NCBI GenBank assembly: GCA_013360395.1 | Contig: JABWBQ010000009.1 | Span: forward strand, 1-64,000 | DNA from: Flavobacteriales bacterium | Lineage (GTDB): Bacteria > Bacteroidota > Bacteroidia > Flavobacteriales_F > PHOS-HE28 | Direction of reading: 5' to 3' | DNA: 64,000 nt | Shown here: positions 28,851 to 34,269 of the stretch, in pieces | Layout of the letters: every line of letters starts with the position of its first letter | How positions within the stretch are numbered: the first letter of the stretch is position 1 | Made by a program: the position numbers and the translations under genes | The notes under the pieces: generated by a model | What the model was told of the DNA's origin: nothing | Database searches by the model: none | The model's input: only the letters and a program-made list of their open reading frames with translations

Positions 28851-29989
28851 GCTCGTGCGTCGGTGTTGGCGAGGGCGATGGTCTCGCGGGCGATGGTGGC
28901 TGCGGCGTCCGGGCGGCCCAGACCCATGATGGCCTTGCGCATGCGTTCGCGCGCCGGTGCGTCCTGCAGCAGGCGCAGCACGGCAGGTCCCAGTTCCTCC
29001 CGGGTGCGGTCGTCGCGCACCAGCATGGCCGCACCGCGGTCGGTGAGCACGCGCGCATTGGAGGTTTGATGGTCCTCGGCCGCGGTGGGCAGGGGCACCA
29101 GCACCGCCGGACGTCCCACCAGGCACAGTTCGCTGATGCTGATGGCACCGGCACGCGCCACCACCACATCGGCGCAGGCGTAGGCCAGGTCCATGCGGTC
29201 GATGAAGGGGAGCACCCTGCAATCGGGATAGCCCAGGTCATCGACGGCCTTGCGTGCCCGGTCGAGGAAGGGGTTGCCCGTCTGCCAGATCACCTGGGCT
29301 CCCGCGGCCTTCCAGGCGGCCAGGGAGGCCTCCACACCGAGGTTCACCCCGCGCGCGCCCAGGCTGCCGCCCGTCACGAGCACCACCGGTGCGTCGCTGC
29401 GGAACCCGAAGTGGGTCAACGCTTCGGGGCGCCGGCCTTCCACGCGCACGGTCTCGGTGCGCACGGGATTGCCGGTAAGGCGCAGACGGTCCTTGGGGAA
29501 GAAGCGCTCCATGCCCGGATAGGCCACGCAGATGCGCCGTGCGCGGCGCCCCAACTGGATGTTGGTCTTCCCGGCATGGCTGTTCTGCTCCTGGATCAGG
29601 GTGGGCACGCCCATGCGCTGGGCCACGGCGAGCAGCGGGCCGCTCGCGTAGCCGCCCACGCCCACGGCCACGTCCGGTCGGAAGGAGCGCAGCAGGCGCC
29701 GCGCCTTCAGGAGGCTGCGCAGCAGCATCCAGGGCAGGCCCAGGTTGGCCAGCAGTGCACCGCGTTGGAACCCCCGGATGGGCAGGCCCACGATGCGGTG
29801 TCCGGCGGCGGGCACCTTGGTCATCTCCATGCGTCCCTCCGCGCCCACGAAGAGCACCTCCGCGCCGGGCGACGCCTCCCGCACGGCGTTCGCGATGGCG
29901 ATCGCCGGGAAGATGTGCCCACCGGTGCCTCCTCCGCTGATCATCAGCCTAAGCGGCCGCCGGGGCGGTGCCTGATCGGGGTTCGACAT
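28847..29989 (-). CDS. murG: UDP-GlcNAc:lipid I N-acetylglucosaminyltransferase
   Basis: The approximately 380-aa GT-B enzyme starts near LMISGGGTGGHIFPAIAIA, the first glycine-rich loop; it also has VGVGGYASGPLLAVAQ and the donor-site signature with GAISISEL (near 270). It makes lipid II on the inner face of the membrane. The start is uncertain: ATG 30016, ATG 29989 and ATG 29944 are in frame. The first two overlap the ftsW end by 41-68 nt. 29989 gives a short polar leader like those of homologues. Confidence 0.95.
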   Translation of the reverse strand: MSNPDQAPPRRPLRLMISGGGTGGHIFPAIAIANAVREASPGAEVLFVGAEGRMEMTKVPAAGHRIVGLPIRGFQRGALLANLGLPWMLLRSLLKARRLLRSFRPDVAVGVGGYASGPLLAVAQRMGVPTLIQEQNSHAGKTNIQLGRRARRICVAYPGMERFFPKDRLRLTGNPVRTETVRVEGRRPEALTHFGFRSDAPVVLVTGGSLGARGVNLGVEASLAAWKAAGAQVIWQTGNPFLDRARKAVDDLGYPDCRVLPFIDRMDLAYACADVVVARAGAISISELCLVGRPAVLVPLPTAAEDHQTSNARVLTDRGAAMLVRDDRTREELGPAVLRLLQDAPARERMRKAIMGLGRPDAAATIARETIALANTDARA

Positions 29990-31136
29990 GTTGGTTCGCG
30001 GGTTCGTCGTACACACTGCGGCTCACGCTCAGCACGATGCCGATCATGAGGCTGGTGAACCAGATGGAGGTGCCGCCCATGCTGACCAGGGGCAGCGGCT
30101 GGCCGGTGACAGGCACGAGGTTCACGGCCACGGCCATGTTGACCAGCGCCTGCAGCACGAGGCTCAGGCTGAGGCCCAGCGCGGTGAGCGCGCCGAAGGG
30201 CTTGGGACAGAAGCGGGCGATGCGCACGGCGCGGCCCATGAGGATGAGGTAGAGCAGCAGCAGGCCGATGCCGCCGAGCAGACTGCCGTACTCCTCGATG
30301 ATGAAGGCGTAGATCATGTCCGAGTACGGGTGCGGCAGGAAGTTCCGCGAGGTGCCGCTGCCCGGGCCGTTGGGCAGCAGACCGCCGCTGGCGATCGCGA
30401 TCTTGGCGTGCTCCACCTGGTAGTTGGCATCGCTGTCGGCCGACCCGTGGTTCTCCAGGCGCGCACGCCAGGTCTCCACGCGGGGCAGCAGTCCCAGGTC
30501 GCCCGCCTCGTTCACGGCCACCAGCAGGGCGAAGGCGCCGACGGCGAGGCCCACCGAGGCGGCGATCCACTTCAGCGGCACACCGCCCAGGAAGGCCACG
30601 GCCATGCACACCACGAAGAGCAGCGCGGCGGTGCTGAAGTTGGCCGGCAGGATGGTGCCGCACACCGCACCGATGGGCAGCATGAGCTTCAGCACCACGT
30701 CGCGGAAGGTCCAGGGCGCCTCCTTGTGGCGGGCAATGGCGCGCGCCGTGAACACGATCAGCACCACCTTCGCCAGGTCGCTCGTCTGGAAGCTCTGGCC
30801 GATGAGCGGGATGCGCAGCCAGCGACTGGCATCGTTGAGGTTGGTGCCCATCAGCAGCGTGAGCACGAGCAGGCCGATGGTGACGCCGAGCAGCAGCTGC
30901 GACAGGCGGCCGTACACCCCGAACTTCAGGCGGTGCGCCCCGTACATGATGGCGCCGCCGCACACCAGCATCAGGCCGTGCTTCATCAGGAAATGCAGGG
31001 TGCCGTGCCCCTCCTGTCGGAACGCCAGGGAGGCGATCGAGCTGTACACGGCCAGGAGGCTGACCACGCCCAACAGCAGCGCCACCATCCAGATGGTGCG
31101 GTCGCCGCGCAGGTGTTCGTGGAAGAGGCGGTTCAT
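29949..31136 (-). CDS. ftsW: Peptidoglycan polymerase FtsW (SEDS family)
   Basis: The 395-aa membrane protein has about ten hydrophobic segments. Conserved SEDS features are FQTSDLAKVVLIVFTA (the acidic residue near the catalytic loop), NFSTAALLFVV, an extracytoplasmic loop with LLPNGPGSGTSRNFLPHPYSDMIYA and VTGQPLPLVSMGGTSIW. It polymerises glycan strands at the division site together with the class B penicillin-binding protein. Start ATG 31136 lies 7 nt after the stop of the MurD C-domain paralogue; its stop lies inside the murG leader. Confidence 0.95.
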   Translation of the reverse strand: MNRLFHEHLRGDRTIWMVALLLGVVSLLAVYSSIASLAFRQEGHGTLHFLMKHGLMLVCGGAIMYGAHRLKFGVYGRLSQLLLGVTIGLLVLTLLMGTNLNDASRWLRIPLIGQSFQTSDLAKVVLIVFTARAIARHKEAPWTFRDVVLKLMLPIGAVCGTILPANFSTAALLFVVCMAVAFLGGVPLKWIAASVGLAVGAFALLVAVNEAGDLGLLPRVETWRARLENHGSADSDANYQVEHAKIAIASGGLLPNGPGSGTSRNFLPHPYSDMIYAFIIEEYGSLLGGIGLLLLYLILMGRAVRIARFCPKPFGALTALGLSLSLVLQALVNMAVAVNLVPVTGQPLPLVSMGGTSIWFTSLMIGIVLSVSRSVYDEPANQHVEPRSGTAPAAA

Positions 31137-31143
31137 CGGTGCA

Positions 31144-31656
31144 TCACAGTTCGCGTACGGTGCGTTTGAAGGCGTGGCCGCGCTCCTCGTAGTTGGCGAA
31201 GCCGCCGCCGCTGGGGCAGGCCGGGCTGAAGAGCACCACCTCACCGGCACCCGCCAGCTCGTGGGCCAGGAAGACCGCGGTGCGCAGATCGCCGGCCTGA
31301 TACACCTGGCCGAGCGCTTCGCGCATGGTCGCGGGCACCTCCCCCACCGTCGCCCCGCACAGGATCAGCGCCGTGACATGATCGCCCAGGAAGGCCCGCA
31401 CCGCCGCGTCGCCCAACCCCTCCGGCAGTTCGCCCGCGATCCACAGCACGGGCTTCTCGATGGCGGCCAGGGACCTCAGTGTGGCGTCGAGGAAGGTGGC
31501 GCGCGAGTCGTTGATGTACTCCACGCCGCGCACCATGCCCACGAATTCCATCCGGTGGGGGGCGCTCCGCAGCTCGTCCAGCGCATGTGCGCGGGCCTCC
31601 ACCAGGCCTGCGCGGGCCTGACGCAAGTTCAGCAGGTGCAGGGTGTCCTTGTCCAT
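31144..31656 (-). CDS. Stand-alone paralogue of the MurD C-terminal domain
   Basis: The 170-aa protein aligns along about 150 residues with the C-terminal third of the adjacent MurD. Shared landmarks are HRME (34-37; MurD EHRLE), INDSRAT (48-54; MurD INDSKAT), VLWIAGE (70-76; MurD VVWIAGG), VLFSPACPSGGGF (141-153; Mur[14 protein letters not shown]) and NYEERG (155-160). The N-terminal UDP-binding domain and the central ATPase with its P-loop are absent. The Lys of the DSKAT motif, which contacts substrate in MurD, is Arg. The gene is intact, in frame with normal codon use, and sits 34 nt after murD and 7 nt before ftsW. A regulator, partner or scaffold role is possible; function unknown. It cannot ligate D-Glu alone. 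Confidence 0.85.
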   Translation of the reverse strand: MDKDTLHLLNLRQARAGLVEARAHALDELRSAPHRMEFVGMVRGVEYINDSRATFLDATLRSLAAIEKPVLWIAGELPEGLGDAAVRAFLGDHVTALILCGATVGEVPATMREALGQVYQAGDLRTAVFLAHELAGAGEVVLFSPACPSGGGFANYEERGHAFKRTVREL

Positions 31657-31690: not shown

Positions 31691-33025
31691 TCAGAGGGAC
31701 CTGACGGCGGCCTTGAACCGACGGCCCCGGTCCTCGTAGTTCTCGAACAGGTCGAAGCTTTTGCAGGCCGGGCTCAGGAGCACCGTGTCGCCCTCATCCG
31801 CCAGCGCGTAGGCGGCCTGGACGGCGTGTTCGGCGCTGCCGGTCTCCACGAAGTCCTTCACCACGGTGGCGAAGGCATCGCGCAGACGGCCGTTGTCCCG
31901 ACCCAGGCACACGATGGCCTTCACCTTCTCCTTCACCAGGGGCAGCAGCTGTGTGTAGTCGTTGCCGTGCTCCTCCCCGCCGGCGATCCAGACCACGGGG
32001 CGGTCCATGCTCTCCAGGGCGTACCACGCACTGTTCACGTTGGTGGCCTTCGAGTCGTTGATGAAGGTGACCCCGTGGACGGTGGCCACCCGTTCCAGGC
32101 GATGCTCCACGTTCTGGAAATCGCTCAGGCTCTCGCGCAGGGCCTCGCTCCGCACCTCCAGGATGCGTGCGGCGATGCCGGCGGCCAGCGAGTTGTACAC
32201 GTTGTGCCTGCCCTGCAGGGCGAGTTCATGTATGGACATGCGGAACGGGTTTTGGTCTGTGTGGATGTGGATGTGGGCGTCGTCGAGCCATCCACCGCGG
32301 CCAAGGGGGCGTTGGATGGAGAAAGGCCAGCGCTGCGCACGCACCGGGTGCAGGTCGATGCCGCGCATCACCTCCGGGTCGTCGGCGCAATGGATGAAGT
32401 GGTCGTCGCCGGTCATGTTCATCGCGATGCGGAACTTGCTCGCGACGTAGTTCTCCATCCGGTCGCCATAGCGGTCCAGGTGGTCCGGCGTGATGTTGAG
32501 CAGCACGGCGACATGGGGCCGCAGGGTGCGGATGCCGTCGAGCTGGAAGCTGCTCAGCTCGAGCACGTAGAGGGCGTGGTCCCGTTCGGCGACGAGGCCC
32601 GCGAAGCTGCGGCCCACGTTGCCGCCCAGGCCGGCGTCGATGCCCGCCGCTGTGAGGATGTGGTGCAGGAGCAGCGTGGTGGTGGTCTTGCCGTTGCTGC
32701 CGGTGATGGCCACGATGGGCGCGTTGGCATGGCGGGCGGCCAGCTCCACCTCGCTGATCACGGGGATGCCCCGCGCATGGGCCGCGGCCACCAGGGCGGC
32801 GGTGTCGGGGATGCCGGGGCTCTTCACCACCTCGTCGGCCGACAGCACGCGCGCGGCCGAATGCCCGCCCTCCTCGAAGGGGATCCCGTGCGCTACCAGC
32901 ACATCGCGGTATTGCGGCTTGATCGCGGCGCCGTCGCTCACGAACACCGGCAGGCCCAGCTTCTGCGCCAGCACCGCCGCGCCCACCCCGCTCTCCTGCG
33001 CACCGAGCACCACCAGGGACCTCAT
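31691..33025 (-). CDS. murD: UDP-N-acetylmuramoyl-L-alanine--D-glutamate ligase
   Basis: The 444-aa ligase has an N-terminal domain ([20 protein letters not shown]), a P-loop [12 protein letters not shown] near 107-116, the SSFQLDGI motif near 160 and a C-terminal domain with [14 protein letters not shown] and [19 protein letters not shown]. All catalytic landmarks are present, so this is the functional D-glutamate-adding enzyme. The start ATG 33025 overlaps mraY by 4 nt. It is the parental full-length relative of the truncated paralogue encoded downstream. Confidence 0.97.
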
Positions 33026-34269
33026 CGCAGCTTGAGGGTTACGATGCTCAACACGGCGAGCATGATGCCGACGATCCAGAAGCGGCTCACGATCTTGCTT
33101 TCGTGCACGCCCTTCTTCTGGAAGTGATGGTGCAGGGGCGACATCAGGAAGATCCTGCGCCCCTCGCCGTACTTGCGCTTGGTCCACTTGAACCAGGAGA
33201 CCTGCATCACCACGCTGAGGTTCTCCACCAGGAAGACCCCGCACAGCACGGGGATCAGCAGCTCCTTGCGCACCAGGATGGCCAGCGTGGCGATGATGCC
33301 GCCGAGGGCGAGGCTGCCGGTGTCGCCCATGAAGACCTGCGCCGGATAGGCGTTGTACCAGAGGAAGCCGATGCAGGCCCCCAGCATCGCACCGATGTAC
33401 ACCGCCAGTTCACCGCTGTCGGGGATGTACATGATGTCCAGGTACTCCGAGAAGATGATGTTGCCGCTCACGTACGCCAGCACGCCCAGGGCCAGCACCA
33501 TGATGGCGGAGGTGCCCGTGGCCAGCCCGTCCAGCCCGTCGGTGATGTTGGCACCGTTGCTCACCGCGGTGATGATGAAGATGACCACCAGGATGTAGAG
33601 CACCCAGGTGTAGCGGCGCGCCTCGCGACCGAACATGCCGAGCACCGAGGAGTAGTTGAACTCGTTGCCCTTGACGAAGGGGATGGTGGTGTTGGGGCTT
33701 TTGCGGTCCAGCAGGTGGTGCACGGTGCCGTCCTCCTCCACGTAGGTGCTCAGCGCCGCGGGGTCCAGCTGTTCGGCGAGCACCGCCGGCACCTCCACCT
33801 TGGTGCGTATGTCCGGATGGAAATAGACCACCGCACCGACGATGATGCCGATGCCGACCTGCCCCACGACCTTGAACCGGCCCGCCAGCCCGCGCTTGTC
33901 CTTCTTGAAGACCTTGATGTGGTCGTCGATGAAACCGATGGCACCGAGCCACACGGTGACCGCGAGCATGAGCAGGATGTAGATGTTGTCCAGGCGTGCG
34001 AAGAGCAGCGTGGGGACGAGGATGGCCGAGAGGATGATGAGGCCGCCCATGGTGGGCGTGCCCTGCTTGCTCAGCTGCCCTTCCAGGCCCAGGTCGCGCA
34101 CCGTCTCGCCCACCTGCATGCGGCGCAGCAGGCGGATGATGCCCTTGCCGAACCACAGGCTGATGACCAGGGAGACGAACACGGCCATGCCCGCGCGGAA
34201 GGAGATGTAGTTGAACGCACCGCTCCCGGGGAGGGAGAAACCGATGGCCTTGAACAGGTGGTACAGCAT
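33022..34269 (-). CDS. mraY: Phospho-N-acetylmuramoyl-pentapeptide-transferase
   Basis: The 415-aa integral membrane enzyme transfers phospho-MurNAc-pentapeptide to undecaprenyl phosphate to form lipid I. Visible motifs are the DDH pair ([17 protein letters not shown] near 115), [12 protein letters not shown] near 245, [10 protein letters not shown] near 315 and LHHHFQKKG near 380. About ten membrane segments are present. Compared with proteobacterial MraY (about 360 aa) there is an extra hydrophilic stretch of some 60 residues (about 150-215), typical of Bacteroidota homologues. Confidence 0.97.

Follow-up and report, generated by a model that had tools for sequence, protein, structure and literature searches.

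Few gene clusters have been studied as closely as the dcw cluster, and the MurD ligase encoded in it is the described protein closest to the gene analysed here. The two are alike in sequence (positions 292–440 of the NCBIfam model TIGR01087), in operon and, as judged by Foldseek with a low-confidence query model, in fold, but our gene lacks domains 1 and 2 with the ATP-binding site, has lost ligase residues and stands as a separate gene. MurD-type relatives also occur in the MurD2/MurL pathway, and MurD2 coexists with the free domain in one family, f71; in contrast to the free domain, MurD2 has all three domains, is an L-Glu ligase and forms its own clade (support 100/100), with the free domain outside it. 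Two further systems show that Mur ligase relatives can serve as parts of complexes. The lipid II amidotransferase MurT/GatD includes a Mur-ligase-like protein that acts at the lipid II stage as part of a complex, but MurT keeps an ATP-binding domain, which the free domain does not have, and a profile search of our protein against the MurT family gave no match. The plant MurE-like protein PAP11 is a Mur ligase relative that serves structurally, as a non-catalytic subunit of the plastid RNA polymerase; it is, however, a relative of MurE in another complex, and no membership is implied for the free domain. A stand-alone MurD C-domain gene was not found described in the open-licence literature searched.

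A free MurD domain 3 between murD and ftsW

The window, the whole stretch of 64,000 nucleotides analysed here, comes from a Flavobacteriales genome (contig JABWBQ010000009.1). On its minus strand, an intact open frame at 31144–31656 runs from ATG to stop and encodes a 170-aa stand-alone MurD domain 3 (C-domain), a presumed ligase-incompetent MurD paralogue with orthologues in other genomes. We refer to this free-standing MurD C-domain gene or protein as C, and code families as f, genomes as G and loci as L. Upstream lies a complete, three-domain murD (31691–33025, minus strand; 396.6 bits with TIGR01087), whose start is overlapped by 4 bp by mraY (33022–34269, minus strand), the next neighbour of C where murD has been lost. 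The murD stop is separated by 34 bp from C, and ftsW (29949–31136, minus strand) starts 7 bp past the C stop, an order that recurs in relatives.

Only model positions 292-440/441 of TIGR01087 align with the window protein (E 2.9e-33), and the score of 115.6 bits lies below the MurD-ligase cut-off of 211.95. Pfam Mur_ligase_C (PF02875) matches over the whole domain length with 36.3 bits, above its gathering cut-off of 28.4. Neither Mur_ligase_M (ATP-binding) nor the N-terminal UDP-binding domain was found in the Pfam and NCBIfam searches. The protein is 35% identical to the adjoining MurD, whose gene is the sole other match in the genome. Arg302, Thr321 and Ser415 are kept, Lys319 is replaced by Arg and Lys348 is absent; the DSKAT motif reads DSRAT, the genus tally at that position being 25 R, 9 K, 4 A and others. 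These results bear out the first-pass annotation, which had described an intact 170-aa gene covering the C-terminal third of MurD without the UDP-binding and ATPase domains, and with the DSKAT lysine changed to Arg. The signature of the L-Glu ligase MurD2, an Arg at the Lys348 position inside a full ligase, was looked for in the window protein, which has neither the residue nor the ligase domains. Read from its residues and missing domains, the protein is not predicted to have D-Glu ligase activity.

Two segments stand out in the protein. The helix LRTAVFLA (residues 124–131; 31264–31287, minus strand) is highly conserved and peculiar to the genus version of C, in which A127, F129 and A131 are invariant and R125 is almost so. 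The segment LFSPACPSGGGFANYEERG (residues 142–160; 31177–31233, minus strand) is the counterpart of the MurD D-Glu side-chain loop, with Ser415 kept and Leu416 changed. An AlphaFold model of the window protein, built from five sequences, matches MurD domain 3 in Foldseek (7ti7, 7u35, 3lk7 and others; E 6e-8 to 4e-7), with plastid polymerase chains at the tail of the list; as its mean pLDDT is low (59.8), the match is corroborative only and the model is too weak for surface analysis.

Artefactual origins were considered. A misassembly that split a second ligase, named in advance as a possible refutation, is ruled out by the same arrangement within single 3.9 Mb contigs of relatives (G002:C1 and G037:C1). 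Readthrough or a frameshift extension of murD is ruled out because the frame offsets of C to murD are evenly spread across loci (35/33/26), as expected at random.

Distribution and gene order

Within the genus, at least two MurD-C matches, corresponding to MurD and the adjoining free domain, were found in 30/30 high-quality genomes and in 43/45 overall. An order-level survey yielded genus genomes only, and the wider spread comes from class-level sampling: 62 more genomes outside the genus, from a class sample of 396, had at least two matches, and nearly all of these loci, when re-examined, carry a 156–241-aa open frame directly behind murD. A broader profile run on 129 well-assembled class genomes recovered the same set and placed C in 38 of them, belonging to 16 of 62 families. 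What had been taken for a local peculiarity is therefore a class-wide gene family rather than a lineage-specific oddity, and the absence from relatives that might have spoken against it was not observed. The feature proposed to mark such a family, a separate open frame of ~155–200 aa in the slot before ftsW, is present. Among ~187 genomes sampled outside the class, nearly all had one match (MurD), and no stand-alone C was seen in the genomes examined, a set that leaves aside G463 and G596, each with a second match. The named matches carrying the free gene are solely Flavobacteriales/Bacteroidetes MAGs.

Essentially all labelled loci read murD-C-ftsW-murG, with median spacings of 20.5 bp from murD to C and 15 bp from C to ftsW, and in loci without C murD is followed directly by ftsW. 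At L170 (2033–3141, in G325), two tandem and strongly different stand-alone C genes lie between murD and ftsW. The gene is patchy within genera of f19 and f39; its patchiness even inside one genus (f19) indicates that it is often lost and is dispensable in some lineages.

Family f71 (31 genomes, 12 genera) has the order murE-mraY-C-ftsW-murG-murC, from which murD is gone, and C sits between mraY and ftsW in ~29 of the 31 genomes. The only full-length MurD relative there is MurD2, which is encoded away from the cluster and in some cases as a fusion with MurL. In G299, just one protein exceeds the MurD cut-off, an unlinked open frame of 876 aa whose C-terminal half matches MurD; its N-terminal half matches MurL with E 1.4e-76, yet stays below that model's strict cut-off. 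In a tree, the seven f71 ligases included group together (100/100), separate from canonical MurD, and they have Arg in place of Lys348, a substitution reported to be important for L-Glu use by MurD2 (PMC8788868). A fusion of the MurL–MurD2 type (~880–1000 aa) or a separate MurD2 stands for MurD at L186 (4264–6894, minus strand; G299), at L234 (G443) and in other f71 genomes; the passages of that review consulted here name no carriers beyond some Proteobacteria and actinobacteria (PMC8788868). A 593-aa open frame in G442 looked like an MraY–C fusion, but this was ruled out: C is a separate 178-aa gene between mraY and ftsW.

These arrangements bear on whether C is an allosteric or inhibitory partner of MurD, a free domain 3 that binds MurD or MurD2, competes with or locks the mobile C domain and so sets the rate. 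Such a role would suit a protein that retains the domain 3 fold and is encoded right behind murD in most families, and in f71 the MurD2 paralogue is still present as a potential target. However, C is strongly conserved in f71 although canonical MurD is missing, and in one genome, G083, a break in the cluster parts C from murD, with C on another contig, 6 bp before ftsW. The tie to MurD that the first-pass annotation had assumed is thus unsupported, and we regard an allosteric role as unlikely.

Unlinked extra copies of C occur at L181 (5017–5556, minus strand), L187 (2621–3280, plus strand), L184 (6195–6833, minus strand) and L183 (4871–5488, minus strand). The extra copies in f4 and f44 adjoin the same aldehyde dehydrogenase gene, and there is one more in G083. 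They are what would be expected if C were a non-catalytic subunit that is carried in the dcw operon but has its job outside wall synthesis or division. Against this, the main copy holds the slot between mraY or murD and ftsW in ~19 families, also after murD loss, and such moonlighting seems improbable to about the same degree.

Ligase residues are eroded in the free domain

To compare the free domain with the ligase next to it, residues of 117 C proteins and 103 partner MurDs were numbered by alignment to 1e0d. Lys348 is kept in 15/117 C proteins versus 100/103 partner MurDs, Lys319 in 57/117 versus 103/103 and Arg302 in 67/117 versus 103/103. Pro412 is present in all 117 C proteins and Ser411 in 112, with Thr321 in 86, Ser415 in 95 and Tyr422 in 89; in the partner MurDs, Thr321, Ser415, Pro412 and Ser411 are each found in 100–103 of 103. 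Retention of Pro412 and Ser411 alongside the loss of Lys348, Lys319 and Arg302 indicates, at the level of the alignment, that the fold-defining residues persist while the nucleotide and D-Glu contacts of the catalytic face are eroded.

The partly retained loop raises the question of an amino-acid or precursor sensor, in which the D-Glu side-chain loop would signal to a division protein how much D-Glu or UDP-MurNAc-peptide is present. In E. coli MurD, Ser415 and Phe422 contact D-Glu or its mimics (PMC3527612), and the frequent retention of Pro412, Ser415 and Tyr422 in C fits such a use. In contrast, 102/117 C proteins have lost Lys348, the residue that holds the other carboxylate; Ser415 is replaced by Asp in the f5 proteins, and the loop is partly deleted in one f71 subgroup. 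We consider a sensor more doubtful still than the two roles discussed above.

The ligases themselves vary at some of these positions. The window MurD (31691–33025) and those at L003 and L039 have His for Lys348 (GGEEHGNDY) and Lys for Ala414 (SPACKSFD), both changes co-occurring in the same three genomes; this is possibly a compensating move of the D-Glu-binding lysine. In f11 (L135, L144, L150, L155, L158, L162 and L165), MurD is unusually divergent and the free C is the most MurD-like of all, with Lys319 and Lys348 kept, a pattern that may reflect ligase replacement.

C is under purifying selection

By the Nei–Gojobori method, which is rough where dS exceeds 1 and was applied in part to open frames taken from the upstream stop rather than the true start, dN/dS of C is 0.17–0.28 in pairs with the window clade, 0.03–0.19 in most pairs elsewhere in the class, and 0.031 and 0.065 in f71, where ftsW gives higher values for the same pairs. 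Internal stops are absent from nearly all copies, and the family shows neither the broken frames nor the dN/dS near 1 of a pseudogene. The C family is under purifying selection. The earlier proposal that the in-operon gene is maintained agrees with the values of ~0.2 near the window and 0.03–0.19 beyond it, and the dN/dS near 1 that it had named as its refutation did not appear. Decay of the family as a whole is ruled out by low dN/dS, open frames and wide presence.

One genus subclade departs from this pattern. At L047, L048 and L049 (G017, G033 and G016), dN/dS is 0.36, and erosion has reached the SPAC motif along with further conserved residues, L049 also containing a run of N; selection is relaxed here, with loss perhaps in progress. 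That C is what remains of a second murD in decay, surviving only by chance, is very improbable: it is indeed a fragment of a larger gene, and the erosion in L047–L049 makes the idea possible for that subclade, but its presence in 30/30 good genus genomes and 16/62 sampled families, together with low dN/dS and intact frames, refutes it for the whole family.

Origin of the free domain

In a first tree, 45 C rows and 43 MurD rows were separated by one branch (support 97/89). When MurDs from genomes without C, f71 sequences and MurD2 were added, 51 of 58 C rows formed one clade (97/74) within the MurDs of the class and the seven f71 rows lay elsewhere; a constraint placing all 58 in one clade was not rejected (AU p = 0.413). 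The f71 proteins seem to retain ~20 more N-terminal residues from the MurD central domain, so f71 C is possibly a displaced murD that was trimmed independently, rather than the same paralogue. Whichever the origin, f71 has retained a free MurD domain 3 without its ligase. Elsewhere, the free domain-3 gene would have come from the C-terminal third of murD, by duplication or by paring-down, at an early stage of the class.

Discussion

Conservation, purifying selection, loss of ligase residues and persistence without MurD together argue that C is a maintained, ligase-incompetent subunit, and we hold it very probable that C is a non-ligase protein derived from MurD. In the mechanism we propose, ligase chemistry would have been lost while the free domain was kept as a non-catalytic subunit. 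C would act through protein–protein contact as a docking or adaptor subunit near the membrane (MraY, MurG, FtsW), by way of the same surface that brings Mur ligases into such complexes. It would thereby link the supply of precursors from the cytoplasm with the synthesis of lipid II and the building of the septal wall.

An adaptor role of C at the MraY/MurG/FtsW stage, with gene neighbourhood as the sole pointer to the partner, is a tentative proposal to which we give somewhat less than even weight. Gene order in the dcw cluster is conserved for many reasons, which weakens the neighbourhood argument. Retention of much of the D-Glu side-chain loop (Ser415 in 95/117, Tyr422 in 89/117) also counts against an adaptor, since a pure scaffold need not keep it. 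The patchy absence of C within genera, its erosion in L047–L049 and the possible separate origin of the f71 gene weigh against the proposal as well. The proposal is helped by the reported binding of MurD, MurE and MurF to MurG (PMC6420597). Slightly more doubtful is its fuller form, in which the Bacteroidota-type dcw cluster has in C a component not described before, a MurD domain that is free and ligase-dead and would serve as a dedicated adaptor from precursor synthesis to the MraY/FtsW stage. When MurD2/MurL displaced the ligase, C may have been kept, or newly formed, independently of MurD itself.

C probably has a job of its own, seemingly undescribed so far. It adds to the dcw cluster an extra conserved gene, present in a large part of a class and without a name in the libraries searched. 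In f71, a family in which the L-Glu pathway has taken the place of MurD, the survival of C after the loss of canonical MurD separates the role of the MurD C domain as a binding module from its role in the ligase, and opens to direct test the physical link that has long been suspected between Mur enzymes and the membrane machinery.
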